Below are positions 13,823 to 28,700 of a stretch of 38,451 bases of DNA, piece by piece. The position numbers were made by a program, and so were the translations under genes. A model generated the notes under the pieces. The model did not search any database, had not been told where the DNA came from, and worked only from the letters and a program-made list of their open reading frames with translations. Within the stretch, counting starts at the first letter, position 1, and each line of letters begins with the position of its first letter. This DNA comes from Candidatus Aerophobetes bacterium Ae_b3b (GTDB lineage Bacteria > Aerophobota > Aerophobia > Aerophobales > AE-B3A), in assembly GCA_005223085.1 (NCBI GenBank), contig NJBP01000015.1, forward strand, positions 1 to 38,451, in the 5' to 3' direction.

Positions 13823-15178
13823 TTATTCTTGCCCCAACACTTCTTTCTCCTGTTCAACAATCCAGTCTATGCCCTTCAGTATTGTCATTTCTTTTGCCCC
13901 TATTTTGGACATTCCCTCCATCATGATATCAATGATGTGACCCATTTCTGGTATCTTCATGGTTGGGACAACGTGTTTTGCTTCAGCTAGATAACCAGCT
14001 ATCCAAGGGATAGAAGCAAACTCAGGATCATTCAAAACATCGAGTCTAAAGGTCGAACCCTTCAGGCGTTGATACTTTCTCTGCACATCGTATTGGGAAA
14101 CATATTGAAGCCATAACCAGCCCATTTCCGGGTTCTTGGACGGTCGTGATACAAACCATGTATGAGTGTCAGCCCAAATTCTCTTTGTTTCTGGAGGTAA
14201 AAAGTAACCCAACTTCCCGGCCACCTTGGATTCCTTTGGGTCTTCGAAATACGCCATCGCATCTGGCCATTGAGGGGCCATGAAAAACTTGCCCATCATG
14301 ATGTCACGATTCATCTCATCCCAAGTGTAGTCCAGAATGGCAGGAGTTGAGAATTTTCCGAGGAGCATATAGAGTTCTAGCGCTCTGCGAAAAACAGGAG
14401 TGTTTGCTGTTATCTCGCCCTTTTGACCAATCAAACCATCCCCGCCCATTCCTACGATAAAGATATTGAGCTGATACGGTGCGCATTCATGGCGCTTCAG
14501 AGGGGTGCATGTCCCATAATAGGCTTCCTGTAATACCTTTCCAGCTAGTTTGTCACCTTTCTTACGTGTAAAGAACTCAGCTAGTTGATAGTATTCAATC
14601 CAAGTTTGAGGGGGTATGGGCATCTCGTATCCGTATCGTTCTCTAAAAGCTTGACGCTCTTCGGGGTGTTCAGCAGGCTCCTTCTGGTAGACGAATCCCG
14701 GTGGAATGTACTGGTAAGGAATACCGTAGTATTCACCCTGATAGTAACAAGCGGCCTTATATGTTTCCGGAAATTCTGTCAGTGGATCGAAATCAGGACG
14801 AGTTATCTCAGATCTGTCCAAGAAGGCATCGTTAGAAAAAGCCCATTCGTTTTCTGCGACTCTCCCTAGCAGAAAAGTGTTCAGTGCAAACACATCATAA
14901 TATCCAATTTTTGAGGTCGCATCAGCAGTGATTTTCTCTACCAAATTTCCATATTCTAGGCCTTCTATTTCGACTTTAATGCCGGTTACTGCTTGAAAAT
15001 CCTTTGCGATTTCCTTATAAGCCCATAGCGGTGCATAGGCCTCTGCTACCATTCTTAAGGTTTTTCCTTTGAATGGCTCAGCTGCTTTCTCAAAAGACCA
15101 CTCTGCACAGGCCTGCAAAGTAAAGCCTGTTGCCAACAATACAACTACTGTGATCAACATTAATCTACGTAATTTCAT
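13823..15178 (-). CDS. ABC transporter extracellular solute-binding protein (sugar type, family 1)
   Basis: A 451-residue exported binding protein. The N-terminus has basic residues, a hydrophobic core (residues 7-20) and ends in ACA-E, a signal peptidase I site after residue 25; the Cys is not in a good lipobox. The mature part begins with the TLRMVAEAYAPLWAYKEIAKDFQAVTGIKVEIE pattern of carbohydrate-binding family 1 proteins. A later motif around residues 285-300 (DEMNRDIMMGKFFMAPQWPDAM) is typical of this group. AGGAG lies before the ATG. Its two permeases are 1 kb upstream, behind a decayed transposase, and no ATPase gene is near. Substrate unknown; a sugar, polyol or sugar derivative is likely from family and neighbours. 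Confidence 0.88.
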   Translation of the reverse strand: MKLRRLMLITVVVLLATGFTLQACAEWSFEKAAEPFKGKTLRMVAEAYAPLWAYKEIAKDFQAVTGIKVEIEGLEYGNLVEKITADATSKIGYYDVFALNTFLLGRVAENEWAFSNDAFLDRSEITRPDFDPLTEFPETYKAACYYQGEYYGIPYQYIPPGFVYQKEPAEHPEERQAFRERYGYEMPIPPQTWIEYYQLAEFFTRKKGDKLAGKVLQEAYYGTCTPLKRHECAPYQLNIFIVGMGGDGLIGQKGEITANTPVFRRALELYMLLGKFSTPAILDYTWDEMNRDIMMGKFFMAPQWPDAMAYFEDPKESKVAGKLGYFLPPETKRIWADTHTWFVSRPSKNPEMGWLWLQYVSQYDVQRKYQRLKGSTFRLDVLNDPEFASIPWIAGYLAEAKHVVPTMKIPEMGHIIDIMMEGMSKIGAKEMTILKGIDWIVEQEKEVLGQE

Positions 15179-15373
15179 TTTTTGCTCCTATGGCTTGGAT
15201 TAGTTAACGCACGTTTTTCTTTCCCCAGCTTCCTTTTTTGTTTCGATTGCAGAGTTTCTTTCTACACGGTTCCCATCACCTCCTCATAATAATATTATAG
15301 TTCTCTCGGAAATTCTTTTCCCCTTCCTGTTCAGTATTTCACTGAGCAGGAATAATCTCATCACCCCCACTAA
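15179..15373. other. Leader region of the binding-protein gene with hairpin
   Basis: On the minus strand a hairpin with 10-base arms (15326-15335 and 15341-15350, one G-T pair, 5-base loop) is followed by a possible -10 box TATAAT (15294-15299, no good -35) and a near-perfect Shine-Dalgarno GGAGGTGAT (15275-15283). The latter is followed only by a 4-codon frame. This may be the leftover start of a gene broken by the adjacent mobile element, or a regulatory leader. The real binding-protein ribosome site is 100 bases further on. Confidence 0.4.
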
Positions 15374-15779
15374 ATGTCCCTACCAAAGGTAAGGACGCAC
15401 AAAAACTATCAGGAGTTTGTGAAAGAACAGCTTGCCCCAGGGAAAATAGAGATTCCCATTATTTTCAGAAATGTTTTTATTAAGCTGTTTCATCTGGATT
15501 TATCTCCTGTTAGTCTTATCCTGAAGAATCGCTACTCTCACCAAGGCCCCTCTGCAAGAGATCCCCAAGATATGCTTCGTTCCCTTTTAGCCATGACCCT
15601 TTTAGGGGTGACCTTCATCGATGAATGGGTAGTTTTGTTTAGAAGTTTCCCTTCATTTACCATCATTAGTGGATTCCTGCCAGATTAGCCCCATCATTAA
15701 GCTTAACAAAAGATGTCAGGGTATCTCCTACAACAAGGATCTTATCTTCTTTACCCCGGATGGGGTTCCCATAAGTTAG
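15374..15779 (+). mobile_element. Decayed transposase remnant
   Basis: The plus strand encodes a 104-residue N-terminal piece (15374-15688) with the segments RDPQDMLRSLLAMTLLGVT and DEWVVLFRSFPSFTIISGF, which I recognise as the start of a transposase family seen in uncultured anaerobes. After its stop, a second frame (15690-15779) reads LNKRCQGISYNKDLIFFTP, followed by DGVP, which looks like an internal part of the same protein, and then also stops. A block between them and the whole C-terminus are missing, so the element is dead. I could not assign an IS family or find terminal inverted repeats. It lies between the permease and the binding protein of one ABC system. Confidence 0.6.
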
Positions 15780-16155
15780 ATATCACCAGAACACGAGGGG
15801 AAAAATGTGGTCCATTAGAGTAGCATTAGCTTGTATGTGTCAACATATAGATGCTCAAGCACAGATGCTTTTATCTTTTACTGAGGAGAAAAAGCTTGTA
15901 GGAACAGGTTAATCTTTCAAAATCCTGGTAAAGGAGTTTCCCAGATCTCATGGGGAGCTACGCTTTGTTTTAGCCTTTTTCCTTAAAAACTCCCTTCTTT
16001 AACGAGAAAGAACAATTTTTAAGCAAAATTCTTGGTGACTTGGTCTTACTTTCCTAATTTTTCGTCTTCTTTTCCGAGAATACTCTAATAGAAATTTGGC
16101 CCAGGACTTCACACCTCTCAATAGCCACCCATAGCTCCTTTAGCTGACTGCAGTC
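15780..16155. other. Non-coding, probably degenerate mobile-element DNA
   Basis: No open frame of note on either strand. It follows the transposase remnant and reaches the stop of the first permease gene. I see no terminator-like hairpin with a T run. It may contain the decayed 3' part of the insertion element. Confidence 0.4.
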
Positions 16156-17022
16156 TTATGCACTCTTAACCGACTCCATTGCCTTAAGTAGCAAAATAGT
16201 GGCCGTAAAGGCGATAAAAAGGATGAACAAAGTAATTGTAGATCCGTAGCCAAAATCCCAACGAATGAAGTTTATTCGATACGAATACATGTTCAATATC
16301 TCGGTCGCGCTACCAGGGCCACCTTTCGTTAGCAGGTATACCTTGTCAAATGTCTTTAAGACAGTTATCAACCTAAAAAGAATTGCCAGTGCAATTGTTG
16401 GTTTTAATAGAGGAAGCGTGACATTCTTAAATATCTGAAGAGCTGACGCTCCATCAACCAGTGCAGCTTCAAATGGTTCTTTCGGAAGACTAACCAAACC
16501 CGCTGCCAATATGAGTATAATGAGCGGAGTCCATTGCCAAACATCAATTAATACCAGTGTATAAAACGCTGACCCTGCTGTCGAGAAAATGCCCATATCA
16601 ACACTCTCAACTATTCCTAATCGAGCCAAATAGTACAAGAATGTACCGAAGTGGGGCATAAGTAGAAAGCGCCAAATTAAGGCTACCGAAATGGGTGACA
16701 ACATTGAAGGTATAATTATGAAAGACATTATGAATCTCTTTGCTCTAAAGTCCTTATTTAGCAAAATTGCTCCACCTAAACCAAAAACGAATTCTACGCT
16801 TACAGCCAAAAAGCAAAACCAGAGGGTCAGTTTTAGGCTTTTCCAAACTGCGGGCTCTCCTAAAAACTTTCGATAATTCTCCAATCCGATAAACTGACCG
16901 CTAAATCTAGGTAAAGCCAGATTGTAAGCGGTAAAACTATATTTTATCATATAGCCGTAAGGTATAATTATCACTGCTATCAAAAAACCAATCGCCGGAA
17001 GTAGGAAAACGAGTTTCCTCAT
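16156..17022 (-). CDS. ABC sugar-type permease (UgpA/MalF-like)
   Basis: A 288-residue inner-membrane protein with about six hydrophobic segments, starting with a helix right after MRKLVFLLPAIGFLIAVIIIP. The cytoplasmic EAA loop, which docks the ATPase, is clear: EAALVDGASALQIFKNVTLPLL (around residues 196-217). FTAYNLALP and FIGLENYRKFL near the N-terminus are typical of carbohydrate-uptake family 1 permeases. It starts 26 bases after the stop of the other permease and should pair with it. The binding protein is the next real gene downstream, beyond the transposase remnant. The ATPase must be supplied from elsewhere in the genome. Confidence 0.9.
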   Translation of the reverse strand: MRKLVFLLPAIGFLIAVIIIPYGYMIKYSFTAYNLALPRFSGQFIGLENYRKFLGEPAVWKSLKLTLWFCFLAVSVEFVFGLGGAILLNKDFRAKRFIMSFIIIPSMLSPISVALIWRFLLMPHFGTFLYYLARLGIVESVDMGIFSTAGSAFYTLVLIDVWQWTPLIILILAAGLVSLPKEPFEAALVDGASALQIFKNVTLPLLKPTIALAILFRLITVLKTFDKVYLLTKGGPGSATEILNMYSYRINFIRWDFGYGSTITLFILFIAFTATILLLKAMESVKSA

Positions 17023-17048
17023 TGACTTAATCTTTCAATAGCTTTTTC

Positions 17049-17864
17049 TTATTTTAACGCTCCAAAGGTTAACCCACGTATGAGGTGTTTGAAAATAAAA
17101 ATGGCTAATACAATAACTGGAATTGTTGAAACGATACACAATGCTGTTACCTGACCCCATAATGTGCCTGTATGAGTAATGAGAGCCGGGATAACGATTG
17201 GCAATGTGCTGTTGCCGCCGTGGGTTAGAACTAGAGCAGCCAAAAATTCGTTCCAAGAGAAGATAAACACCAATACACCTGTAGCAACTAACCCCGGTTT
17301 TGCCAGAGGTAGAATGATTTTGACTAACATCGTTAATGCTCCCGCTCCCTCTATCATTGCTGCCTCATCCATTTCTTTAGGGATACCGCTCATAAAGCTT
17401 TCCACTACTAAGACTACCAAACCTAGGTTAATACCAGTATGCGCAATAATTAGTCCAATATGTGTTCCAACCAAGCCTATCTGGGCAAAAACAAAATAAA
17501 GAGGAAAAGCAATACCAAGGGGAGGTGCCATGCATGTAAGGAGTATGAAAAGCTTAAACTTTCTCAGACCAAAAAACCGAAACCTAGAAAAAGCATATGC
17601 CACAGGTATACCAATAGCGAAACTTAAGAACAACGTTCCTATTGCAGTAACGAAGCTATTGATAATAAATCGGTAATACCCCTTTTGAATTAGTATATCG
17701 AAATAGTACTCCAATACCGGCCTAAACATCCACACCGGTTTCGTTGCGAACATCGCCTCCATTGGTTTTAAACTTGTGATCAAAACGGTAACGTAGGGCA
17801 CAATGAAAATTGCTAAAATCAGAAGGATGCCAAATCCCCTTGGAAGTGACAATCTTTTATTCAT
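17049..17864 (-). CDS. ABC sugar-type permease (UgpE/MalG-like)
   Basis: Second membrane subunit of the importer, about 271 residues and six hydrophobic segments. The EAA loop EAAMIEGAGALTMLVKIILP and the downstream FIFSWNEFLAALVLT are diagnostic of MalG/UgpE-type permeases. An ATG at 17885 would give seven more residues, but the sequence GGAGGAGAGG right after it is a better Shine-Dalgarno site for the ATG at 17864, so I use that start. The usual order (UgpA before UgpE) is reversed here. A strong hairpin lies just upstream, separating the transporter genes from the enzyme genes. Confidence 0.88.
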   Translation of the reverse strand: MNKRLSLPRGFGILLILAIFIVPYVTVLITSLKPMEAMFATKPVWMFRPVLEYYFDILIQKGYYRFIINSFVTAIGTLFLSFAIGIPVAYAFSRFRFFGLRKFKLFILLTCMAPPLGIAFPLYFVFAQIGLVGTHIGLIIAHTGINLGLVVLVVESFMSGIPKEMDEAAMIEGAGALTMLVKIILPLAKPGLVATGVLVFIFSWNEFLAALVLTHGGNSTLPIVIPALITHTGTLWGQVTALCIVSTIPVIVLAIFIFKHLIRGLTFGALK

Positions 17865-17914
17865 TCCTAATTTCCTCTCCTCCATCCTCCGTGTACAAAG
17901 ACATACCCTCGCGA

Positions 17915-17976: not shown

Positions 17977-18849
17977 TTACTGAAAGCTGTTGCCACTCGC
18001 CAATCGTTGAAATATATCACGAATAAATAACGCAGACTGGGTAAGCTCTTGATCTATCTCATGTAATGGTTTACGAGGTCCTACAATGAAATCTGTTGAT
18101 CCTGTTAGATTTAATTCCAACTCCAAACTCATAGGACCATGGAAATTCATGTTGATTATTTGTGCAATGAAAGCGGGAAAATTTACCAAGCCTTTTCCCA
18201 AGCCAGGAAACGACCACTCATCACCAGTCTTTGTTATTTCTTTGAGGTGCACGTGTATTAGACGCCCACGTAAATATGCCACATCATGCTCGGGTAAAAC
18301 GTTCGATCTGAAAAAAATGACATTTCCTGGATCATAGTTAATACCAACATTCGGATAATCATCGAGCTTTTCGAGAAGTTCCGCACCTTCCTCTCCGGTA
18401 TAGATTAAGCCTGCATCTGTCTCTAGTCCTATCCAAATACCTCTTTTCTCAGCATAACGAGCGACAACGTCAAGGTTTTTCCTAAATAAGCAGTAGTTTT
18501 GAGGTTCTGTTGTGAAAGTATTGATAATTCTTGCGCCAATATGCTCGGCAAAATCAATCCTCTTTTTAATGACTTCCACAGTATTATCTTGTCCCAGATC
18601 TGCATGGCCACTAAAACTCATCGATGAAAGACCATTACTATTCATCAATTTCGCAACGCGGCTAAAATCTGAAAGGCACATCTTTTCGGGGATAACGTGT
18701 TCGGTAAAACCCTTTATTGCTGCAATCTCAACCAAGCCAAAACCAAGTCTGGCTACATGTTCAAGAACGACTGGCAAATCATAACCATCGTAACTGGCCG
18801 TGTTCACCGCTAATTCTGGTTTTACTTTTACCATCCCGAAATTTATCAT
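17977..18849 (-). CDS. Sugar phosphate isomerase/epimerase-like TIM barrel (AP endonuclease 2 family)
   Basis: About 290 residues with the Xyl-isomerase-like TIM-barrel layout: start KPELAVNTASYDGYDLPVVLEHVARLGFGLVEIAA, mid part GARIINTFTTEP, then metal-ligand-like segments GLETDAG, GINYDPGN, LIHVHLKEI and a final LELEL. The Glu, Asp, His, Glu set of this family appears present. Such proteins isomerise or epimerise ketoses, inosose or related compounds. An extended frame to a TTG at 18942 exists but adds 31 residues with no family likeness; AAGG before the ATG at 18849 makes that the better start, with 18834 also possible. The neighbouring SDR and ADH suggest a shared sugar or polyol pathway; substrate unknown. 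Confidence 0.82.
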   Translation of the reverse strand: MINFGMVKVKPELAVNTASYDGYDLPVVLEHVARLGFGLVEIAAIKGFTEHVIPEKMCLSDFSRVAKLMNSNGLSSMSFSGHADLGQDNTVEVIKKRIDFAEHIGARIINTFTTEPQNYCLFRKNLDVVARYAEKRGIWIGLETDAGLIYTGEEGAELLEKLDDYPNVGINYDPGNVIFFRSNVLPEHDVAYLRGRLIHVHLKEITKTGDEWSFPGLGKGLVNFPAFIAQIINMNFHGPMSLELELNLTGSTDFIVGPRKPLHEIDQELTQSALFIRDIFQRLASGNSFQ

Positions 18850-19091
18850 CCCCTTGCCTTTTGGTATACAGACCCTTTTGACCAATTTCATTCCTCGTTT
18901 AGGGAAAGAATTTCTTCCCTCCAAGAGAAATTTGCTAAACAAACTCTTGTTCCCCAGAAAACCTATGAGAATAAAAACTTAAATTACCTTTATCTGTGGT
19001 AAATCGATTCGACTACAATTCTCCTCTTCCCACGCTTACTATGATCACGCTAATATAAAAAAGAGCCTCGCGCGTAACAAGAATACAATTG

Positions 19092-19892
19092 TTACCCAGA
19101 ATAAAAGCCACCACAAATATTAAAGGATTGGCCAGTTATCCACGCAGCATCATCTGAGGCTAAGAAAGCAGCAAGACCTGCTATATCCTCAGGGGTTCCT
19201 AACCGACCGAGCGGGACCTTGGCGACACAACCATCCAAGTATTCCTTTTCTGAGATGCCAAACCGCTTAGATAAAGTCGTAACCTCTGCTTGCATCATGG
19301 GAGTCATGGTATCGCCAGGGCAAATTGCGTTGACATTTATATTATGTCGTGCTAATTCGAGGGCTACAGTTTGTGTGAAGCTTATGACTGCGGCCTTAGA
19401 TGCATTGTAATGTGAGAATAACTTCACCCCAAATTTCCCAAAAACAGAAGCAATATTGATAATTTTACCACCTTTTTGCTTGGTCATTTGTTTAGCCACT
19501 GATTGTGTGCATAAAAACACCCCTTTCGTATTAACATTGAATATAGAATCCCAGTCTTTCTCTTCTATCTCTGCCAGAAGTGCCCAATCTACAATCCCAG
19601 CCCCATTAACAAGGATATCTACTTTATTAAATTTTTCTATAGCAGTATTTACCATCTGATTTACGTCTTCCTTATTTATAACATCCGTTTTTACTGCCAA
19701 AACCTGACGTCCCAGCCCTCTAATCTCTTGAGCCACTTTTTCGGCACCCTCTAAGTCGACATCAGCTATAACTACATTTGATCCCTCGTGTGCAAATCGG
19801 ATTGCAATGGCCCGTCCAATACCTGAACTGCCTCCTGTCGCTATGGTTACCTTGTCAGTGAATCTTCTCATTGTTGCTGGTTGATGATTCAT
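19092..19892 (-). CDS. Short-chain dehydrogenase/reductase (SDR), NAD(H)-type
   Basis: A 266-residue classical SDR. Visible are the nucleotide loop TGGSSGIG (residues 19-26), acidic residues in VIADVD at the end of strand 2 (favouring NAD over NADP), the NGAG motif at 96-99, Ser149 and the catalytic YNASK (Tyr162, Lys166), and a late PGDTMTPM. The C-terminal ITGQSFNICGG is standard. GGGAGG precedes the ATG. Resemblance to sugar-alcohol or ketone dehydrogenases is general, so the substrate cannot be named. It follows the iron-type alcohol dehydrogenase after a 182-base gap that contains a repeated motif (19951-19978). Confidence 0.9.
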   Translation of the reverse strand: MNHQPATMRRFTDKVTIATGGSSGIGRAIAIRFAHEGSNVVIADVDLEGAEKVAQEIRGLGRQVLAVKTDVINKEDVNQMVNTAIEKFNKVDILVNGAGIVDWALLAEIEEKDWDSIFNVNTKGVFLCTQSVAKQMTKQKGGKIINIASVFGKFGVKLFSHYNASKAAVISFTQTVALELARHNINVNAICPGDTMTPMMQAEVTTLSKRFGISEKEYLDGCVAKVPLGRLGTPEDIAGLAAFLASDDAAWITGQSFNICGGFYSG

Positions 19893-20074: not shown

Positions 20075-21301
20075 TCAGTAACACTGCTCATAAAGAGCTA
20101 CAATATCTTCTTCACTAACTTTTCTTGGATTTGCCTGAATAGCTTCAGGCATAGTTTTAATCGCATCCTCAGCCATTAATTTGAATTTTGTCCTTTCTAC
20201 ATCTAAGTCTTTTAGACTCACATTGAGCTTTATTGTTTTTAACAATTTCTCTATCAAATCCACGCTTTTTGAAGCTTCTTCTTTTCCAGTCTTATTGTCG
20301 AAAATCGACTTTCCTGTTGCCGCTCTAGTAACCTTACAGTACTTTTCTATAGTGCACTTATCGGCTCCCTCCAAATTGAAGCGCATAATAGCAGGAAATA
20401 GAGCCGCTAAACTTACCCCATGAGCTACCCGTGGATGGTGACCACTGACGGGATGAGCCATGGCATGGGGAAGGATATCAGAGGTAGTAGTATCAGCCCA
20501 TCCAGCGTAAGTATCTGCTAAAGCCATTTCTTTTCTCGCTTGTTGGTCGTCACCGTTTTCGTAAGCCTGGGGTAAATTGCGAAAAATAAGTCTGATTGCC
20601 TCAAGCGAATAGAGCTCTGAGATGGGATTGCTATGCGCAGAAAAAAAAGATTCTATCGCATGGGTTAGAGCATCAAACCCCACTATAGCAGTTAAACGGG
20701 GTGACATTTTAGAGAGGATTTCTATATCTATTATGCTAATTTTGGGAAACAAAAATGGACTTCCAAAACCTTGTTTTTGCTTGGTTTTAGAATTGGTAAT
20801 GACGCTATCTTGACTGACATGACTTCCTGTTCCTGATGTAGACGGAATAGTCACCAGTGGTAATGTTTGGGCAGTAATTTCTTCGTTTGCTCCTTCTGGA
20901 GAAATGAAATCCCAAATAGAAATAGGTTTTCCACGTGCATGTCCCGCTGCGACGGCAATGGCCTTTGCAGTGTCTATGGAAGAACCTCCACCAAGAGCTA
21001 CAATTACATCACATGCATTTTCAATGGCTTTTTTAGCCCCTTCGTTGACTATGTCAACTGTTGGGTTTGGTTCCACCTCTCCATAGTGAACCACTTGAAC
21101 ACCAGCTTTTTTAAAGGACTCAATTGTTTTATCTAAGAAACCTAATTTTTTCATACTACTTCTGCCAGTTACGAGAAGGGCTACTTTACCAAGTTTTCTC
21201 GTTTCATATCCTACGACTTCTAAAGCCCCTGGATAAAAGATAATGTCAGTCTTTGGGGCATAGAATTTAAATCTTCGACCTTTACCTGTGAGACCGCTCA
21301 T
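20075..21301 (-). CDS. Iron-containing (group III) alcohol dehydrogenase
   Basis: A 408-residue Fe-ADH family enzyme that interconverts alcohols and aldehydes or ketones with NAD(P). The NAD-binding motif GGGSSIDTAKAIA (residues about 100-112), the segment GFDALTHAIESF and the metal-binding HAMAHPVSGHHPRVAHG (residues about 278-294) are all clear. GAGGAG stands before the ATG, 16 bases after the BFD-like gene, so it is in the same transcript as the redox proteins. It may produce or consume the aldehyde handled by the AOR encoded upstream; this is inference. Substrate is not predictable in this family. Confidence 0.92.
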   Translation of the reverse strand: MSGLTGKGRRFKFYAPKTDIIFYPGALEVVGYETRKLGKVALLVTGRSSMKKLGFLDKTIESFKKAGVQVVHYGEVEPNPTVDIVNEGAKKAIENACDVIVALGGGSSIDTAKAIAVAAGHARGKPISIWDFISPEGANEEITAQTLPLVTIPSTSGTGSHVSQDSVITNSKTKQKQGFGSPFLFPKISIIDIEILSKMSPRLTAIVGFDALTHAIESFFSAHSNPISELYSLEAIRLIFRNLPQAYENGDDQQARKEMALADTYAGWADTTTSDILPHAMAHPVSGHHPRVAHGVSLAALFPAIMRFNLEGADKCTIEKYCKVTRAATGKSIFDNKTGKEEASKSVDLIEKLLKTIKLNVSLKDLDVERTKFKLMAEDAIKTMPEAIQANPRKVSEEDIVALYEQCY

Positions 21302-21317
21302 TCACCAGCTCCTCGAC

Positions 21318-21593
21318 TTACATGTTTTTAGATTTAGCCAGAATCTCCGCTGTAATTGGCCTGATGGGTGATCGATGGGTAGCGGGAAGAATCTCCTTTA
21401 TTGGCTTCCCGGTCATTTCATGGATTATCTTGACTATCAATGTGTAGCATGTGTGTGATTGACAAAGTCCCATCCCTGCCCTAGTTGCTCTCTTAACCGC
21501 ATCTACATTATCTGCTCCTTCTCTTATCGCCTTTTTAATTTCCTCCTCCGTTACTTCCTCACACCTACAAATAATTAAATCTTTTTTACTCAT
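21318..21593 (-). CDS. BFD-like [2Fe-2S]-binding protein (split dehydrogenase subunit)
   Basis: About 91 residues. Cys9, Cys11, Cys44 and Cys49 (ICRC ... GLCQSHTC) match the [2Fe-2S] site of bacterioferritin-associated-ferredoxin-like domains. In heterotrimeric amine, opine or hydroxyproline dehydrogenases this domain is normally the C-terminal part of the FAD alpha subunit; here it is a separate gene. An in-frame ATG at 21620 would add nine residues, but the ATG at 21593 overlaps the stop of the preceding ferredoxin gene by 8 bases (ATGAGTAA), a coupling arrangement, so I prefer it. Confidence 0.85.
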   Translation of the reverse strand: MSKKDLIICRCEEVTEEEIKKAIREGADNVDAVKRATRAGMGLCQSHTCYTLIVKIIHEMTGKPIKEILPATHRSPIRPITAEILAKSKNM

Positions 21594-22116
21594 TTTTATC
21601 CACTTTTTGTTGAAGTTCAATTCCTCTAACCTGGTTAGAGTATTCCTTAGGTATTACAATAGTAATCACTGAAGTGTGATCATGGCTTTTTGGATCACGG
21701 ACCTTTAATACTTTTGCCTTACAAGCAATCTCCCCTTCTCGGTTCACTGCATTAACCTCATCGCCCTCTTTGGGGAGAGGATAATACTCATAAGGGAAGG
21801 AAACAGTCGCCTCTTTCTCAGAGTAAGTGTTATCCACTAGAAATATAGCTAAGCCAGGACAGATAGGTATACAGAGTCCACAAGCGTTACATTTATCCTG
21901 ATCTATTCGAGGTAAATTAGTAATTGGCTCTCCTACCACAATTGCTCCTCTGGGGCATATCGTCTCACAGGGATCACAGGGAATCTCTTCTGGACATTCT
22001 ATGACAATGACAGGCTTTCTCTTTAACTCCTCTTTAGAAGGATAACCAGGAGAAGCTTCTAATATTTCCCTAGAGATTACCCATGCTCCAGGGGTAGACT
22101 TTAGTCTGTCTTTCAT
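21586..22116 (-). CDS. Two-cluster [4Fe-4S] ferredoxin-domain protein
   Basis: A 176-residue protein with two [4Fe-4S] sites: Cys41, Cys47, Cys50, Cys54 (atypical first spacing, C-x5-C-x2-C-x3-CP) and Cys76, Cys79, Cys82, Cys86 (CNACGLCIPICP). A further 85 residues with beta-rich character follow (residues 90-176) and resemble no domain I recognise. Its ATG overlaps the stop of the FAD oxidoreductase by four bases (ATGA), so it should be made stoichiometrically with it. It probably passes electrons between that FAD subunit and a ferredoxin pool. Confidence 0.85.
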   Translation of the reverse strand: MKDRLKSTPGAWVISREILEASPGYPSKEELKRKPVIVIECPEEIPCDPCETICPRGAIVVGEPITNLPRIDQDKCNACGLCIPICPGLAIFLVDNTYSEKEATVSFPYEYYPLPKEGDEVNAVNREGEIACKAKVLKVRDPKSHDHTSVITIVIPKEYSNQVRGIELQQKVDKNE

Positions 22117-23213
22117 CTATTAACCTCACTTTCGGTAAGTTTCCTTTTGGCTTCTGCTCGCGTATCTCCAAAAGGACCCAATCTGAGGGATTCTAACCTT
22201 TTTCTGGCAAGATTTTTCTTCTCGTCTGCTTCTTCAGAACCCAGATAGCCCAACTCCTCGGCCACAGCTATTCCAGCAAGGCGTCCTTCCTCCATCGCTG
22301 TAGAGGCTTCTTCAATCCCAGCTACATCCCCAGCTACATAAATATCTTTTACGGTACTCCTCATATTTTCATCATGTATAGGTACGTGGTCTCCTAGAAC
22401 AGGGAGGAACATAAATTTACATCCTGCCATCCAGCAAAGCTCGGCAAGAGGTCGAAGTCCCACAGCAATACATATAAGGTCTACAGGCAGAACTCTTTGT
22501 GTCCCTTCCATAACATTACCCTTTTCATCTATTGAAGCTATAACTGCTTCCTCTACTTCATTTTCTCCACGAGCTTCACATATAGTAGCTGAAGTTAGAA
22601 TGGGAACGCCGGTTCTCCTTATTTTGGCGGCATGTACCATATAGCCTCCAATTTTGGGAAGAGCCTCAACAATAGCTGCTACCTTGATGCCTGCAAGAAG
22701 TAGTTGATAGCTGACAATAAGACCAACATTGCCTGAACCCACCATCAGAGCTTTCTGGCCCGGTTGAACTCGATGAACATTCATCATTGTTTGAGCAGCT
22801 CCTGCCCCCATCACTCCCGACAAAGTCCAACCCGGAAAACAGAGAGGATTTTCCGATGCTCCTGTAGCTATTATGGTCTTTTTGGTTTTTATAGTATAAG
22901 TTCTTCCATTATTTTGAATTCCCAACATATTTTTCTCAATTCCCCATACTACTGTATTGAGCATTGTCTTTACACCGAATTCTTCGCATTGAGAAAGCAA
23001 GGAATATCCTATATCATGACCCCTTATACCTGCTTGATGCTCTTTAGAGCCAAAAAATTTATGTATTTGTTTGAAAAGTTGACCTCCTGGCCTCTCATTC
23101 TCATCAAATACAGTTACCTGAACGCCATAGCTCGCTGCCTTAGCGGCAACTGCAAGACCAGCCGGACCTCCTCCCACTACTGCCAACTCTACATTCATAG
23201 TTTCTTTGCCCAT
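22113..23213 (-). CDS. FAD/NAD(P)-binding oxidoreductase, alpha-like subunit of an amine/imino-acid dehydrogenase
   Basis: A 366-residue pyridine-nucleotide-disulfide-type flavoprotein with an N-terminal FAD loop VVGGGPAGLA (residues 12-21), ERPGGQLFKQIHKFFG, a central NAD(P) loop MVGSGNVGL, and a final GDVAGIEEASTAMEEGRLAGIA. This matches the alpha subunit of HcnB/OoxA/LhpE-type complexes, except that the C-terminal [2Fe-2S] BFD domain is missing and encoded two genes later. It overlaps the [2Fe-2S] gamma-like gene by 19 bases. An internal ATG five codons later is another possible start. Confidence 0.88.
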   Translation of the reverse strand: MGKETMNVELAVVGGGPAGLAVAAKAASYGVQVTVFDENERPGGQLFKQIHKFFGSKEHQAGIRGHDIGYSLLSQCEEFGVKTMLNTVVWGIEKNMLGIQNNGRTYTIKTKKTIIATGASENPLCFPGWTLSGVMGAGAAQTMMNVHRVQPGQKALMVGSGNVGLIVSYQLLLAGIKVAAIVEALPKIGGYMVHAAKIRRTGVPILTSATICEARGENEVEEAVIASIDEKGNVMEGTQRVLPVDLICIAVGLRPLAELCWMAGCKFMFLPVLGDHVPIHDENMRSTVKDIYVAGDVAGIEEASTAMEEGRLAGIAVAEELGYLGSEEADEKKNLARKRLESLRLGPFGDTRAEAKRKLTESEVNR

Positions 23214-23512
23214 TTTCCTAACCCTTTCTGAGTTTGGATTTTCATCCCGTCTCTAGCGGGGGTAACACATGTTCTAACATTGGGTTGTCCATCTACAATC
23301 ATTACACAGTCTGTGCACCTTCCTATTGCACAGAAAACCCCCCGTGGTTCCTCTCTTTTTGGACTCATTCGCAATACTCTTATCCCTGCTGCCAATAATG
23401 CGGCTGCTATTGGTTCACCCTCATATGCTGCTATCTTTTTACCGTCCACCTCAAGAGTAATTTTTCTTTTCTCCTCCAACTTCCCCAGAATTGGATGGTA
23501 AAATATTCTCAC
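23195..23512 (-). CDS. [2Fe-2S] gamma-like subunit of the FAD dehydrogenase complex
   Basis: A 105-residue protein with a plant-ferredoxin-like [2Fe-2S] site: Cys61, Cys66, Cys69 (FCAIGRCTDC) and Cys82 (NVRTC). The segments LEVDGKKIAAYEGEPIAAALLAAG and DGQPNVRTCVTP are typical of HcnA/SoxA N-domain/LhpF-type small subunits. Translation starts at GTG, with AAGGAG seven bases ahead. It lies 37 bases after the AOR gene. It would link the DAO-type beta subunit (26.1-27.4 kb) and the alpha-like flavoprotein. Confidence 0.88.
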   Translation of the reverse strand: MRIFYHPILGKLEEKRKITLEVDGKKIAAYEGEPIAAALLAAGIRVLRMSPKREEPRGVFCAIGRCTDCVMIVDGQPNVRTCVTPARDGMKIQTQKGLGKWAKKL

Positions 23513-23548
23513 GTTTTTTCTCCTTTGTGATTTATAAGCTCAGCCTTG

Positions 23549-25492
23549 TCAAGCAATAAATTTCTTATCCAGTGGTGGACCATTCCAACTTGAACGCGGA
23601 AGGAGTTCATTGAGTTCATCAGCCACTTCTATTAAATCTAACTCGCTAACCTTACCTCTCGTTGGAACAGCACTCTTAATATCCCAACCCCTTTGGTTGA
23701 AATATCCATCTAACAATTCATCTAATTCCTTTTGAGAAACTATGCTACCTTTAAAGAGTCCGTCAGGAATTGGCTCTTGTGCGAATCTCCAAGATAGTTT
23801 GTAATGTTCCCTATTTATGCCTTCACGGACACAAAAAGCCTGTTCAAGAGTATATATTCTCTCTGCAATAAGATTAAGTTCTTTAGTAGTCCAGTCCACC
23901 CCAGTGGCTGCTGAGAGGATCTCAACGATATCTTTAAACACTCTTTTGCTTATGGGGAAGTAATATTGTATCCCATCATTCTTACAGCGAGGTAAACAGT
24001 CAGCCAATACATTTATATTTTCCTGCCATACAACCATCTTCTCTTTCCCATATATTGTTACAGGATAGGCTATCTTGCTATCGCCAAGTATTTTTTTGCA
24101 GGCTTCCGGGTTGCTAATCATACTGGGATCGCCTCTTAAATGGTCACTTCCCCTTGTGCTTGTCATCCTGGACAACGCAAATGCGTATCCTTGTCTTAAG
24201 TCGAGGTGACACATCCCTTTAACATGACCGACGTATCTCAGAGCCTCGTCTCCTATAATCCTTCCTGCATTATAGGCCCCCTCGGCCAATACATCCCCAA
24301 AACCCTCTCTTTTGGCAATTTTCTGAATCATCTGAATCTGTGCTTCGCCGTTCCCCCATTCCAATTTTACTCCACCAGCATCCTTGTGGGTTATAATACC
24401 CCTTTGATACCATTCCATGGCATTGGCTAAGACATGCCCCGCAGACATCGTATCTAAACCTAGATCATTACATAATGTATTTGATTTGAGAACTACCTCT
24501 AAATCCGTATTCATGGTCAAATATCCAAGATGTGCAACCGTTTCAAACTCTGGACCAGCAGCTCTATCCCCGGCATAAGAACCAGTCAATATGTTGTATA
24601 GGCGGTGACAACTAAGAGGACATGCCGTACAGCTTTTTAACCTAGAGACGTATCGTAAAGTATTATGGCCACTTAATTTATCAATCCCCGGTAAATTCCA
24701 ACTCTGAAAGTTTTTACACTGGCTTAAACTGGACGACCACTCAGGGTTGTTGAGCACAGTAGTTCCATACATAGAGAAGGCCTTATAGAATGCTTCTGAT
24801 CTTAACTCATCAAACCGGTGTTTCGCCAGTTTTTCAAATTTTTCTGGCTCGGCGATTTTGACCCCTCTGGTTCCCTTAACTGCGATAGCTTTGAGATTCT
24901 TTGACCCCATTACTGCTCCCATTCCGGTACGCCCAGCCGCATTACAACCTTCTGCCATTATGTTCGCAAATCGAACTAAATTTTCACCTGCTGTACCTAT
25001 ACAAACAACCATGGATTGGGCCCCAATATCTTCTTTTAAGGAAACAGTTGCCTTATATACGTTTTTGCCCCAGAATGGTCTTGCATCTCGGATCTCTACT
25101 CTTCCATTTTTTATTAAAAGATAAACTGGTTCCTCTGATCTACCAGTAATAATTATTTGGTCGTACCCTGCTCCCTTTAACGCTGCTCCAAAGTGACCTC
25201 CACAATTTGAATCACCTATAAGTCCAGTCAGTGGCGATTTCGCGCTGACATTGAATCTACCCGAAGTTGAAGCTAATGTTCCAGCCAAAGGTCCCACACC
25301 AAAACAGAGGACATTGTCCTCTCCAAGTGGGTCTATTCCAGGCTTAATTTCATCCCATAATACCTTCATATTAAACCCTCGCCCACCGAGCCATTTCTTC
25401 CGGAATCTCGTTACTAGGGGTTCAATAGTAATTTTTTTATTTTTTAAATCCACTCGTAATCTTTTTCCCGTCCATCCATAAACTTCTGGCAT
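23549..25492 (-). CDS. Aldehyde:ferredoxin oxidoreductase (tungsten/molybdenum pterin enzyme)
   Basis: Oxidises aldehydes to carboxylic acids with ferredoxin as electron acceptor. The 647-residue length is standard. Residues 35-100 carry the LGGRGFNMKVLWDE start and GRFNVSAKSPLTGLIGDSNCGGHFG pterin-binding block. The [4Fe-4S] ligands are Cys288, Cys291, Cys295 and one of Cys499/Cys503. The second pterin-binding region around residues 348-352 and GAYNAG at 405-410 are also seen. It follows a four-cluster ferredoxin gene by 26 bases, the usual AOR partner. Unusually it sits between the DAO-type beta subunit and the other subunits of an FAD dehydrogenase. Tungsten rather than molybdenum is likely from family but not provable. 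Confidence 0.94.
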   Translation of the reverse strand: MPEVYGWTGKRLRVDLKNKKITIEPLVTRFRKKWLGGRGFNMKVLWDEIKPGIDPLGEDNVLCFGVGPLAGTLASTSGRFNVSAKSPLTGLIGDSNCGGHFGAALKGAGYDQIIITGRSEEPVYLLIKNGRVEIRDARPFWGKNVYKATVSLKEDIGAQSMVVCIGTAGENLVRFANIMAEGCNAAGRTGMGAVMGSKNLKAIAVKGTRGVKIAEPEKFEKLAKHRFDELRSEAFYKAFSMYGTTVLNNPEWSSSLSQCKNFQSWNLPGIDKLSGHNTLRYVSRLKSCTACPLSCHRLYNILTGSYAGDRAAGPEFETVAHLGYLTMNTDLEVVLKSNTLCNDLGLDTMSAGHVLANAMEWYQRGIITHKDAGGVKLEWGNGEAQIQMIQKIAKREGFGDVLAEGAYNAGRIIGDEALRYVGHVKGMCHLDLRQGYAFALSRMTSTRGSDHLRGDPSMISNPEACKKILGDSKIAYPVTIYGKEKMVVWQENINVLADCLPRCKNDGIQYYFPISKRVFKDIVEILSAATGVDWTTKELNLIAERIYTLEQAFCVREGINREHYKLSWRFAQEPIPDGLFKGSIVSQKELDELLDGYFNQRGWDIKSAVPTRGKVSELDLIEVADELNELLPRSSWNGPPLDKKFIA

Positions 25493-25518
25493 CTTATAAA
25501 CTCTCTATCTATTTGTAT

Positions 25519-26028
25519 CTATTTAATCTTCCTAAGAGTCAAAACTCCTTTGGGACACCATCCTATGCATTTTGGACCATCGGAAGATCCGTCGCAAAGA
25601 TCGCACTTTACCATTATTATTTTATCTTCCCTTTTGTTGTACCACAGAGCATCAAAAAGGCAGGCACGTATACATTTGAGACATCCACTGCACTTTTTGT
25701 CATCAATTACCACAGCACCAGTTTCCACAGCTATTCTGATAGCACCTACCGGGCAAAATTGAATACAAAAACCACATTGGGTGCATATCTTGAGTTGAAA
25801 AATTTTTGAGCTTGACCCATTTATCCATTCGCATTCCTTTTTGATTACCTTTATTCCAGACAGAGATGGATTGCACTCTCTATGATGATACAGAGAGCAC
25901 GCCATTTCGCAAAGGGAGCAACCGACACATTTTTCAGTCGCACTTTCCCCCTCCTTAAGTTCAACACGATATAGTATTTTTATTGTTTTTGCCTTCTCTT
26001 TAGTCTCTTTGTCTTGTAGTTTATTCAT
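25519..26028 (-). CDS. Four-cluster [4Fe-4S] ferredoxin, AOR partner
   Basis: A 169-residue HycB/AorB-like electron-transfer protein. Four cysteine sets are visible: Cys34/37/40/44, Cys82/85/88/92, Cys113/116/119/123 and Cys142/145/154/158. The order and the split last set are typical of ferredoxin subunits attached to pterin oxidoreductases. It directly precedes the AOR gene and is expected to take its electrons. No twin-arginine signal is present, so it acts in the cytoplasm. I see no good Shine-Dalgarno site before its ATG. Confidence 0.9.
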   Translation of the reverse strand: MNKLQDKETKEKAKTIKILYRVELKEGESATEKCVGCSLCEMACSLYHHRECNPSLSGIKVIKKECEWINGSSSKIFQLKICTQCGFCIQFCPVGAIRIAVETGAVVIDDKKCSGCLKCIRACLFDALWYNKREDKIIMVKCDLCDGSSDGPKCIGWCPKGVLTLRKIK

Positions 26029-26059
26029 TTAATTATTCTACATTAGATTATTTCAATTT

Positions 26060-26087
26060 CCGAACCACTATCCTTAGAAACCTACCT
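26060..26087. repeat. Repeated intergenic motif, copy 2
   Basis: CCGAACC, seven bases, then TTAGAAACCTAC, matching 19951-19978. It lies in the 99-base gap between the DAO-type gene and the AOR ferredoxin gene. Confidence 0.45.
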
Positions 26088-26127
26088 TCAAGTAAACTAG
26101 TTTGAATGAATGTACTAAAAATTACTG

Positions 26128-27378
26128 CTATATTTGGTTTATTCTTTTATTTGCTAATTCTAAATTGTTGTACTTTTTAGCTAAAAATTCATGTAAAGTT
26201 TCATGTACGTAAGGATGAGGCCACTCTATCTTAGGACAAGGTCGTCCTGGATCAAAGATCTCCATTGGTATTGATATGAATTTCACTTGAGTAATATATT
26301 CAGTTATGAGTTCACCTACCGCAGCTGCATCAGCCATACCGTCAGCAAAGCCAGCAACTACTAACAAGCCTTCTTTATTAGGTATAGGTCCAATGAAGGG
26401 TACTCCATCAGGAGTAAAAGCCATAGTCCCTGCCCAAGATCGAATAACATTTACATGTCTTAAAGAGGGAAAAAATCCACATAGATACTCAGCGCATCTC
26501 TTTGTTTCAGATAATCTAATGAATTCATCATAATAATTATAATTTCCAGGTTCGCCCGTAGGTAAACCAGGGCCGCCGATTAGTAAATTACCATCTTTGG
26601 TTTGTGTAGTACCGTAAGCAAATTCCCCTTCAAAACGAGCTTCAAATGGACAGGAGCGAAGTTCGGGTAATGCCTCGGTAATCATAGCAATCTCCCTTAC
26701 TGGGATAATTTCTACTTCTTTTGTTAGTTGAGAAGCCCAAGCATTTGTTGCATTTACCACCCACTTAGCTTTAGTTTTACCAATGCAGCTTCTAACCCCT
26801 ATTACTTTTCCGTTGTCTTCTATTATTTCTTCTATTTTATTATTGGTGCAGATAACTGCTCCATGTTTCTTTGCGGCTCTAGCTAAAAGGTAGGTAAGCT
26901 TGAAGGGATTAAGATTCCCATCACTTGGACGATATCTGGAACCGAATACTGTTCTATCTCCGAAGATAGGCATTATTTCACGTGTTTGTTTTTCGTCAAG
27001 CAGTTCAATCTCGTTATCCCCTAACTTATGTTGGATTTCTACTAACTTTTTGAGTGAATTCCACTCTTCTTCACTAACAGCTATGTCAAAAGAACCTATT
27101 TGCTTGTATTCGAAATCCCCTATTTTGTCCTGTAATTCGAGCAACCTATGAGTATTTAGTTGAGTAAGATTAAGCCTTTTTCTTGTTTTATCTATATTTA
27201 ATTCTCTACCATATAATTGGACTACCATACCTCCACATCTTCCGCTCGCTCCTGAAGCAAGATTTCCCCGCTCGAATAAGATTACATCAATACCTTCTTT
27301 GGCTAAATGATAAGCAATGGAACATCCCACTGCCCCCCCGCCAATTACTACAACATCAGTAGCATCAAAAACTTTCAT
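26128..27378 (-). CDS. DAO-family FAD dehydrogenase, beta-like subunit (amine/imino-acid/opine type)
   Basis: A 416-residue flavoprotein of the D-amino-acid/sarcosine/proline dehydrogenase family. The FAD loop VVVIGGGAVGCSIAYHLA (residues 9-26) is followed by ERGNLASGASGRCGG, and the C-terminal RSWAGTMAFTPDGVPFIGPI and AGFADGM are typical. In known complexes this subunit oxidises the C-N bond of glycine, opines, proline, hydroxyproline or N-methylated amino acids. AGGAGG before the ATG is strong. It is the first intact gene after the regulator; the alpha- and gamma-like partners follow only after the AOR pair. The substrate cannot be read from sequence. Confidence 0.9.
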   Translation of the reverse strand: MKVFDATDVVVIGGGAVGCSIAYHLAKEGIDVILFERGNLASGASGRCGGMVVQLYGRELNIDKTRKRLNLTQLNTHRLLELQDKIGDFEYKQIGSFDIAVSEEEWNSLKKLVEIQHKLGDNEIELLDEKQTREIMPIFGDRTVFGSRYRPSDGNLNPFKLTYLLARAAKKHGAVICTNNKIEEIIEDNGKVIGVRSCIGKTKAKWVVNATNAWASQLTKEVEIIPVREIAMITEALPELRSCPFEARFEGEFAYGTTQTKDGNLLIGGPGLPTGEPGNYNYYDEFIRLSETKRCAEYLCGFFPSLRHVNVIRSWAGTMAFTPDGVPFIGPIPNKEGLLVVAGFADGMADAAAVGELITEYITQVKFISIPMEIFDPGRPCPKIEWPHPYVHETLHEFLAKKYNNLELANKRINQI

Positions 27379-27406: not shown

Positions 27407-27735
27407 TCATAACTTTAATAATTTACTGATATTCTTATAAAGTATTTTTTCTTTGGCTTCTTCTGATATTTGGGCATCAGTAATCTTTGCTAATTCAGCA
27501 GCGATGTTGAGAGCTGGGCTACCTGAACCCCATACAATCTTATCATCTCCACATTCCTGCACTGCGGTCTTAATAACCAGCCACTCTGTTGGAGAGCCAG
27601 CGGTGTCTAGGTAAATATTTTTGTTTTCCTTTGCCACAAATATCCCCTCTAACCAATCCTCAAATCCAAAGTGTGCCATGATCATTTTGGCATCCGGAAA
27701 CCTTTTTGCTAAATTACCTATAAGACGTGAACTCG
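27407..27735 (-). pseudogene. C-terminal fragment of a COG2159-type amidohydrolase
   Basis: About 105 residues from LIGNLAKRFPDAKMIMAHFG to the stop match the last third of TIM-barrel amidohydrolases related to ACMSD/decarboxylases (metal ligand His in MAHFG, then LDTAGSP and KIVWGSGSP; intact members usually read GSDWP there). There is no N-terminus: immediately upstream the DNA switches to the start of a DapA-family gene in another frame. The ATG at 27760 that opens this frame is a chance codon inside that other gene. The fragment is therefore almost surely dead. Confidence 0.75.
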
Positions 27736-27830
27736 ATGTGTTGTTTAAGCGCTTTTTCATCTATCATTCCCCCTTGTGTAAAAGGAGTAATTGAAGCTAC
27801 AGCCACACCCCCCGTTTTTTTCTTTTCCAC
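27714..27830 (-). pseudogene. N-terminal fragment of a DapA/dihydrodipicolinate-synthase-family gene
   Basis: A perfect AAAGGAGG and a GTG start at 27830 open a frame of 38 codons whose residues 6-34 (GGVAVASITPFTQGGMIDEKALKQHIEF) are a classic DapA-family N-terminus. The frame then runs into the amidohydrolase fragment and stops. A deletion that removed the rest of this gene and the start of the amidohydrolase explains both pieces. A longer frame starting at 28040 exists but the extra part overlaps the regulator gene and is spurious. Confidence 0.75.
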
Positions 27831-27912: not shown

Positions 27913-28650
27913 TCAATTCGAATGATGTCTACGGAAGATAGTAAAGCTAAACAACTCAGCAGCCCAATATTCCCGACAATATAGGATCGGATGATCCTGA
28001 ATGCTATAATCGATTTCCTCGATGAGCAACAAAGGTACATTAGTCTTTATTTCCAATTTCTTCGCAATATACGGCTTTACGAGAATAGGAATTATTTCAG
28101 CTTTACTGTATTCTATTTTTTGATCGTGTCTCTCTCTAAGAAGTTTAGATAAAGATCCGCTAAATTTTTTGAAACTCCCTCTTACAATATCCTTTGAAAA
28201 AACATCAATAGTATAAACCACTGGTCTTTCATCAGCTGTTCTCACTCTCTCTATAATAAACACGGGAGAGCCTGCCTTTATAGATAGCTTTTTCGCAATA
28301 AGTTTATCAGCACTTGTTTTTTGGAGTTTAAAGCTGGATGTTCCAGCTTTAAAACCCGCCAGTTCAATCACCTCTGTTACACTTAAATCTATTTCCAAGG
28401 GATTACCTTTTAAAGACTTATAGCCCTTTGTAAATGTTCCAACACCCTGCCGCCTAATGATAAGACCATCTTCTTCTAAAAGTCGTAACCCCTCTCGCAC
28501 AGTAACACGGCTAACTCCTAGTATCTCGGCAAGCTTAACCTCACTTGGAATTCGATTACTTGGAGTAAAGGCACCCTCCTCGATTAACTGAACTATTTTA
28601 TTTCTAACTATAAAGGGTAAAGGTTGCCCAAACTTTTTAATCTTTTCCAT
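27913..28650 (-). CDS. GntR/HutC-family transcription regulator with UTRA ligand domain
   Basis: A 245-residue regulator. Residues 10-75 form the GntR winged helix (RIPSEVKLAEILGVSRVTVREGLRLLEEDGLIIRRQGVGTF). Residues about 95-235 match a UTRA effector domain, which binds small metabolites, often sugar or amino-acid derivatives. It is the first gene of the catabolic locus, and a palindrome lies between its promoter -10 box and its start, pointing to autorepression relieved by the pathway substrate. There is only a weak Shine-Dalgarno site, consistent with low expression. Confidence 0.92.
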   Translation of the reverse strand: MEKIKKFGQPLPFIVRNKIVQLIEEGAFTPSNRIPSEVKLAEILGVSRVTVREGLRLLEEDGLIIRRQGVGTFTKGYKSLKGNPLEIDLSVTEVIELAGFKAGTSSFKLQKTSADKLIAKKLSIKAGSPVFIIERVRTADERPVVYTIDVFSKDIVRGSFKKFSGSLSKLLRERHDQKIEYSKAEIIPILVKPYIAKKLEIKTNVPLLLIEEIDYSIQDHPILYCREYWAAELFSFTIFRRHHSN

Positions 28651-28675: not shown

Positions 28676-28700
28676 TTGTCAGTCGTTATACGACTGACAA
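28676..28700 (-). promoter_or_regulatory. Putative GntR operator, perfect palindrome
   Basis: Ten-base arms TTGTCAGTCG (28676-28685) and CGACTGACAA (28691-28700) are exact complements around TTATA. It begins 26 bases upstream of the regulator start codon and lies 6 bases downstream of the -10 box, over the expected transcription start, the classic position for a repressor site. Confidence 0.8.

Follow-up and report, generated by a model that had tools for sequence, protein, structure and literature searches.

Gene content of the locus

The window analysed here is a stretch of 38,451 nucleotides from Candidatus Aerophobetes bacterium Ae_b3b (genome G000; contig NJBP01000015.1 of assembly GCA_005223085.1, positions 1 to 38,451 of the forward strand). 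From 27378 down to 20075, its minus strand carries a run of genes in which an aldehyde:ferredoxin oxidoreductase (AOR) and its ferredoxin are nested inside a dehydrogenase complex made of flavin and iron-sulfur subunits. In gene order, the run comprises:

26128-27378, minus: DAO-family FAD (flavin adenine dinucleotide) subunit, beta-like, probably the substrate-oxidising one (PF01266, 222 bits; AlphaFold model; R313-W315 motif)
25519-26028, minus: four-cluster ferredoxin, WorS/AorA-like small subunit of AOR (Fer4 families; PDB relatives)
23549-25492, minus: large subunit of AOR, WorL (AFOR domains PF02730, 270 bits, and PF01314, 330 bits)
23195-23512, minus: [2Fe-2S] subunit, gamma-like (PF13510; matches the N-terminal part of soxA)
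22113-23213, minus: FAD/NAD-binding subunit, alpha-like (PF07992; soxA, 133.8 bits)
21586-22116, minus: 2x[4Fe-4S] subunit with a C-terminal beta domain (Pfam; eight cysteines invariant in 13 sequences)
21318-21620, minus: BFD-like [2Fe-2S] subunit (PF04324, and PF17806, the sarcosine oxidase A3 domain)
20075-21301, minus: iron-containing alcohol dehydrogenase, Fe-ADH (Pfam; below all equivalog cut-offs, the nearest being ErcA, choline dehydrogenase and lactaldehyde reductase)

The order DAO-ferredoxin-AOR-[2Fe-2S]-FAD-[4Fe-4S]-BFD, given in an earlier note on this DNA, is real and is followed by Fe-ADH: the named open reading frames are all intact and on the minus strand, and each family was confirmed by Pfam. 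From the DAO to the Fe-ADH gene the successive intergenic gaps are 99, 26, 36, -19, -4, -35 and 16 bp, so that the AOR gene lies 26 bp from the ferredoxin gene and 36 bp from the [2Fe-2S] gene. Since the gaps range from -35 to 99 bp, the run is likely transcribed as a single message.

We collected relatives by scanning a species-genome collection with an alignment of the alpha subunit and taking the best 80 of 506 relatives, which do not form a random sample. The complex had also been described as split. This is true of the window, but the split itself is ordinary: in many of the 80 loci the beta gene stands at the opposite end, or UroD-like or symporter genes separate it from the others. What is rare is an AOR between beta and gamma, found in one of the 80 loci (L048, nested like the window in the order DAO-AOR-gamma-alpha).

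The dehydrogenase complex

By composition, the subunits form a dehydrogenase complex of the type of L-proline dehydrogenase (PDH1), D-hydroxyproline dehydrogenase (D-HypDH) and opine dehydrogenase (OpnDH), which probably oxidises an amine. The best PDB match of the DAO protein is 1y56_B, the beta subunit of PDH1 from Pyrococcus horikoshii, both by sequence (E 6e-49) and by the fold of its AlphaFold model (pLDDT 82; Z 46.1, rmsd 2.1 over 365 residues). The next matches are sarcosine oxidase beta (2gag_B, Z 45.6) and glycine oxidase, and the sarcosine and dimethylglycine dehydrogenases are also near. Read by eye from the alignment, the R-x-W motif is present as R313-S-W315; this motif has been tied to FMN (flavin mononucleotide) in amine-oxidising complexes (PMC4575208).

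The FAD and [2Fe-2S] proteins match consecutive parts of the sarcosine oxidase alpha family, the soxA score of the FAD protein being below the whole-protein cut-off of 1164. This alpha-like protein also matches the 1Y56 complex in a PDB search, and it is 50-56% identical to three relatives of the same phylum. By eye, the gamma [2Fe-2S] subunit has the cysteine spacing C-x4-C-x2-C-x11/12-C; the BFD-like cluster C-x-C...C-x4-C is present too, on a protein separate from alpha, which scores best against GlpA (46 bits). The eight cysteines of the 2x[4Fe-4S] protein were likewise counted by eye, and a fold search with its AlphaFold model (pLDDT 85.6) gave no match above Z 6.0 (8ftm_B, 77 residues), which is uninformative on function. 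The C-terminal part of this protein, at about residues 89-176, is a confident beta domain.

In contrast to PDH1, the window encodes gamma and BFD as proteins of their own, has an additional 2x[4Fe-4S] protein and carries an AOR pair nested in the run. D-HypDH and OpnDH (alpha4beta4gamma4; PMC4575208) share with the window the beta, gamma and alpha components and the R-x-W motif, but their beta, gamma and alpha genes lie side by side in this order, alpha itself contains the BFD-like motif and, in the text cited, there is no AOR. Archaeal dehydrogenase complexes are treated in PMC8704557.

Three observations, all made by eye, bear on the substrate. First, the arginine of the G-I-R-Q-Q-F stretch of PDH1-beta aligns with a valine in the window's DAO, and this arginine is absent from the three members of the window's DAO clade (described below) that reach the region. 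Second, the glycine oxidase loop W-A-G-L-R-P, the arginine of which is R302 (PMC3818420), reads W-A-G-T-M-A in the window. Third, that loop arginine is absent from all four aligned clade members. The carboxylate-binding arginines of the known sarcosine and glycine enzymes thus appear to be gone, provided that the residues are equivalent. As sarcosine oxidases hold the substrate carboxylate through Arg52, Tyr55 and Lys348 (PMC12582975), these absences make a compound without a simple amino-acid carboxylate a plausible substrate, under the same proviso.

The AOR and its ferredoxin

The nearest PDB entries to the window's WorL are the Pyrococcus furiosus AOR 1aor_A (E 7.3e-119) and 9mqx_D. Its ferredoxin, in which the four clusters were counted by eye from the cysteines, has 8c0z_C as best and 9mqx_E as third-best PDB relative, both of which are small subunits of aldehyde oxidoreductases. 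Together, the two proteins correspond in composition to a Class II WorLS, such as P. furiosus ASOR and C. bescii GOR (PMC13328260), the known members of which differ from the window in not being described beside a DAO complex. By eye, in one pairwise alignment with the P. furiosus enzyme, the cluster cysteines C288, C291, C295 and C503 are kept, together with the equivalents of Thr243, Glu313 and His448. We infer that the window's AOR is tungsten-dependent, aldehyde-oxidising and ferredoxin-reducing. The match to 8C0Z recalls the Class III WOR (Aromatoleum AOR), and, like WorN there, a protein with an FAD/NAD domain has its gene close by; unlike in Class III, however, the window's FAD protein is by sequence the alpha subunit of the DAO complex, and the gene order differs.

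Recurrence of the pairing

An AOR occurs at 7 of the 80 alpha loci (L048, L057, L060, L062, L065, L078 and L103), which is a lower bound because many loci sit on short contigs. In 50 of the 80 genomes we counted 221 AOR copies, distributed over 29 genomes. Random placement of these copies would leave an AOR at 1.04 alpha loci, against 7 seen (P ~4e-5), and an AOR as immediate same-strand neighbour at 0.15, against 3 seen. This is a simple null with rounded genome sizes, and the genomes were L046-L092 in rank order plus L097, L103 and L118, picked by hand; L103 bears an AOR and therefore favours enrichment, the rank-order set alone giving 6 of 47. At L078, the AOR gene overlaps the 2x[4Fe-4S] gene, and on L147 (the L062 contig) it starts 48 bp after it. 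An alpha search of 400 Chloroflexota genomes (E<=1e-110) gave three matches, with an AOR in G033 only in the stretch examined. On L147 (G033:C3, 6075-17999), five AOR genes stand in a run directly behind the DAO complex, with a four-cluster ferredoxin.

Among 17 genomes of the window's phylum, four have an alpha subunit (E<=1e-60), and in three of these an AOR lies beside or near the complex: the window's own genome, G001 (DapA-BFD-DAO-FeS/[2Fe-2S] fusion-FAD-AOR-MBL-HyuA) and G013 (AOR, a dehydratase fragment, then BFD-DAO-FeS/[2Fe-2S]-FAD-ThiS/MoaD-like). In G008, a transporter of the dipeptide type accompanies the complex, and the 8.7-kb contig contains no AOR. The pairing thus recurs across phyla more often than under random placement, and an absence of the AOR from all relatives, which by the earlier note would have refuted its reading, was not observed. 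Such recurrence in unrelated bacteria suggests that the two enzymes act in sequence.

The AORs found beside DAO complexes are mostly 23-40% identical to each other, and this diversity makes repeated recruitment likely. Two groups are more closely related, namely L033/L060/L150 (59-76%) and L057/L078/L103 (55-63%). The DAO and AOR trees come from rapid searches without a clade test and contain many poorly supported forks and a number of long branches. Judged from them, the pairing seems to have arisen repeatedly, at some six positions of the AOR tree (an impression rather than a tally), and to have persisted afterwards in at least one phylum-crossing lineage. In the DAO tree, L033, L043, L060 and L150 fall into a single clade (SH-aLRT 99), and an AOR is present at all four loci, three of these AORs being the first group just named. 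A search of 395 genomes with the L060 AOR, which is a partly independent test in that it does not start from the DAO, found this gene itself and one other, in G345. Some 7 kb separate the latter from a DAO complex of the L060 clade; a short-chain dehydrogenase/reductase (SDR), two glycyl radical enzymes and their activase are encoded in between, on the strand of the AOR. A search with the L103 AOR, covering 391 genomes of the class to which it belongs, recovered no gene other than the query. The G345 cluster (G345:C22; L150, 1-19001, and L151) holds two MttB-like genes, a branched-chain-type ABC (ATP-binding cassette) system, the AOR, two glycyl radical enzymes (one of them HypD-like) and the DAO complex, and it is a candidate betaine or hydroxyproline-betaine pathway.

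The DAO clade of the window and its probable carbohydrate link

The window's DAO groups with those of L051, L046 and L074 (SH-aLRT 100), and a search of 35 genomes of the phylum of L074 found seven with a window-type DAO. Eight clade loci were counted (L046, L051, L074, L162, L163, L164, L165 and L166), leaving out L067, the DAO of which is cut by a contig end. Gfo/Idh genes occur in all eight (as two open reading frames in L051), a UroD-like gene in five (L046, L051, L162, L163 and L164) and a cyclase-family gene in five (L051, L074, L162, L165 and L166), while glycosidase-like, PIG-L and xylose-isomerase-like genes lie near several of them. The constant Gfo/Idh genes and the carbohydrate-gene neighbours point to carbohydrate-linked substrates for this clade, with which the TIM-barrel and sugar-type permease genes of the window (listed below) fit. 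In several phyla, the DAO-complex operon contains or borders on a UroD-like gene (L046, L051, L067, L162, L163 and L164); we take these genes to belong to the MtaA/CmuA family.

Flanking genes and remnants

The following features lie upstream and downstream of the run:

28676-28700, no strand: perfect inverted repeat with 10-bp arms and a 5-bp spacer, candidate GntR operator (occurs once in the window; expectation from shuffles 0.01)
28734-28707, minus: promoter-like site beside the inverted repeat (11/12 matches)
27913-28650, minus: GntR-family regulator, PhnF/HutC/LSA1692-like (below every equivalog cut-off listed)
27714-27830, minus: remnant of a DapA-family gene, about 29 residues (PF00701 positions 2-30, E 0.0018)
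27407-27760, minus: C-terminal Amidohydro_2 fragment, fused to the DapA remnant (PF04909 positions 159-289, E 2.1e-15)
19092-19892, minus: SDR oxidoreductase, possibly of the same regulon (182-bp gap)
17977-18942, minus: xylose-isomerase-like TIM barrel protein (family match)
13823-17885, minus: sugar-type ABC uptake system, putative member of the module
17885-17049 and 17022-16156, minus: two ABC permeases, sugar-type
15178-13823, minus: candidate ABC binding protein (no NCBIfam match; after a 977-bp gap holding a short plus-strand open reading frame)

The GntR gene (28650-27913) heads the gene run, with the promoter-like site and the inverted repeat ahead of it. The palindrome is probably the operator of this regulator, as a candidate; it was not found in the other loci compared. 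Promoter-like sites as such are not commoner in the window than in shuffles (33 versus 36.4). The DapA remnant, with a PF00701 score of 17.5 bits below the gathering cut-off of 22.1, runs into the C-terminal part of Amidohydro_2, so that both genes look broken, and the joined remnants imply that the operon may earlier have held intact enzymes of both families. At 27407-27830 the start of DapA is joined to the end of Amidohydro_2, by one deletion or by an assembly join. The short plus-strand frame in the permease/binding-protein gap (15374-15688) is transposase-like by eye and may mark an insertion remnant.

Proposed pathway and its alternatives

We propose, with a probability of roughly 0.4, that the locus is one operon, in which a five-subunit flavin/iron-sulfur amine (or imine) dehydrogenase has been combined with a recruited two-subunit tungsten-type AOR (WorLS) to convert a carbohydrate-linked amine into an aldehyde and then into an acid. 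The neighbouring sugar-type importer would bring in the amine. The DAO subunit would oxidise its C-N bond, and the electrons would leave the FAD of this subunit by way of alpha, gamma and the additional iron-sulfur subunits, to end on ferredoxin or a different carrier. The imine would then hydrolyse to an aldehyde, the putative intermediate shared by the two enzymes, which the AOR would oxidise to the acid with transfer of electrons via WorS to ferredoxin. The Fe-ADH would interconvert aldehyde and alcohol and thereby act as a redox valve. As a more speculative form of this proposal, which we regard as a long shot, the alpha, gamma, 2x[4Fe-4S] and BFD proteins would serve as a shared electron hub, onto which DAO and WorLS dock as two catalytic heads, the aldehyde being kept within the complex and four electrons being delivered to low-potential carriers. 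In opine dehydrogenases, beta subunits are known to replace one another on a shared alpha/gamma (PMC4575208).

Several points weigh against the proposed operon pathway. That a C-N bond is the target of the DAO complex is itself presumed from the likeness of its subunits to known enzymes. Relatives' Gfo/Idh, UroD-like and cyclase partners are absent from the window's operon, and no AOR occurs in the eight loci of its DAO clade (some only 3-5 kb long), so that the pairing is seen once in that clade. The window's AOR has no close relative among the sequences compared (best 44% identity, in G007), and a scan of the species-genome collection with it found no relative. By eye, in the pairwise alignment mentioned above, Tyr427 of P. 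furiosus corresponds to Leu430, a further difference from known Class II WorLS; this calls for caution because Tyr427 is named, with Thr243, Glu313 and His448 (P. furiosus numbering), among four residues little varied in most aldehyde-oxidising members (PMC13328260). AORs are also common in the genomes counted, in varied contexts, and an AOR of the L033/L060 group occurs in G010 without a DAO complex nearby (no alpha match at E<=1e-40 in that genome).

The best-surviving alternative, which we consider unlikely but serious, is that the AOR pair is a chance guest in the DAO operon. As a Class II WOR that serves aldehyde detoxification or is linked to carbohydrates, it would have no intermediate in common with the DAO complex, and the two would share no more than a regulator and the pool of ferredoxin. 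The abundance of AORs would favour this alternative, and so would the low identity between most AOR lineages found beside DAO complexes, the otherwise AOR-free clade of the window's DAO, and the other AORs of G000, one of which stands in an unrelated sugar-type cluster. It fits poorly with the enrichment at alpha loci, including that as immediate neighbour, with the apparent co-inheritance in L033/L060/L150 and L057/L078/L103, and with the position of the AOR inside a tight operon that it does not break.

Clearly less probable is the oxidation of a C-O bond, by which the DAO complex would act on a polyol, a sugar acid or a glycerol-3-phosphate-like substrate, while the AOR and Fe-ADH would take the aldehyde released by a sugar-acid aldolase, the former product of the now broken DapA gene. 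The GlpA score of the BFD protein is consistent with this, as is the carbohydrate context of the DAO clade, and the DapA and Amidohydro_2 remnants, the SDR, the TIM barrel and the sugar-type permeases would suit a sugar-acid pathway. The full-length DAO, however, is nearest to imino-acid and amine enzymes (1y56_B, the sarcosine and dimethylglycine dehydrogenases and glycine oxidase), and its R-x-W motif is the one tied to FMN in amine-oxidising complexes (PMC4575208).

The earlier note had named as one option a hydroxyproline-type route, in which an AOR could replace the aldehyde dehydrogenase. This idea suits the lineage of G001, L060 and G345. First, in L060 (Desulfobacteraceae) the genes for AOR, racemase, DapA, racemase, DapA, BFD, gamma, alpha, 2x[4Fe-4S] and DAO follow each other in one direction, and one racemase exceeds the NCBIfam 4-hydroxyproline epimerase cut-off of 376 bits (382.2), while the other is under it (341.9). 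Second, G001 has the order racemase-DapA-BFD-DAO-FeS/[2Fe-2S]-FAD-AOR over two contigs, the ends of which share an exact 127-base overlap; as such an overlap is an assembler k-mer trace at a graph junction, the adjacency of racemase and DapA to the complex is likely, not proven, and this racemase stays below the cut-off (307.7). Third, one glycyl radical enzyme of G345 is HypD-like (1055 against the hydroxyproline dehydratase cut-off of 1100). Fourth, DapA occurs at 5 of the 7 AOR-bearing loci against 20 of the 73 others (Fisher P 0.028), and an aldehyde dehydrogenase at only one of the 80 loci (L086; 87 stretches searched). In L142 (G015:C47, 5271-9808), a proline-racemase-family gene neighbours a DAO gene and the gene for a fused FAD/iron-sulfur protein, but no AOR is present.

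For the window itself, this route would make the DAO complex a D-hydroxyproline dehydrogenase and the AOR an alpha-ketoglutarate semialdehyde:ferredoxin oxidoreductase, with the DapA deaminase supplied from elsewhere. G000 does have five intact DapA-family genes elsewhere, and its sole Aldedh-family gene looks ProA-like (by eye from the sequence). Nevertheless, the window poorly suits the route, because no proline racemase was found in G000 (88.6% complete), the DapA of the cluster is a stump, and the DAO belongs to another clade, with Gfo/Idh and without AOR; it is 29-32% identical to the DAOs of the L033/L060 clade, and the AOR about 33% to their AORs. We therefore rejected hydroxyproline as first choice for the window's own substrate, and hold it to be quite improbable there.

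Least probable of all is an N-demethylation, in which the complex would demethylate an N-methylated amine or amino acid and leave formaldehyde for the AOR to oxidise: the beta, alpha, gamma and BFD proteins are indeed similar to parts of the heterotetrameric sarcosine oxidase (soxA, PF17806, 2gag_B), but Pfam lists no GcvT-like folate-binding domain in any of the window's complex subunits, and the carboxylate arginines appear to be missing from the DAO, if rightly equated.

Significance

The DAO-complex/AOR combination was not found in the literature searched, which left out most subscription journals and supplements, and the words "proline" and "sarcosine" are absent from the main text of the WOR classification paper (PMC13328260; supplements not covered). 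The parts belong to known families, and what we rate as new is a dehydrogenase operon of the PDH/HypDH/OpnDH type that took up a Class II WOR. According to the same paper, an enzyme with a defined role is available for just 5 of 92 WOR clades. The recurrent link of diverse AORs to amine or imino-acid dehydrogenase complexes would give AORs a concrete role, which is to oxidise the aldehyde made by the DAO and to conserve its electrons as reduced ferredoxin. In the L060 and G001 clusters, the predicted reaction is the oxidation of alpha-ketoglutarate semialdehyde in anaerobic hydroxyproline catabolism, which, if true, would be a new way of running a known pathway. Should the electron-hub arrangement also hold, the repeated recruitment of AORs would represent a general anaerobic substitute for NAD-linked aldehyde dehydrogenases in amine and imino-acid catabolism.

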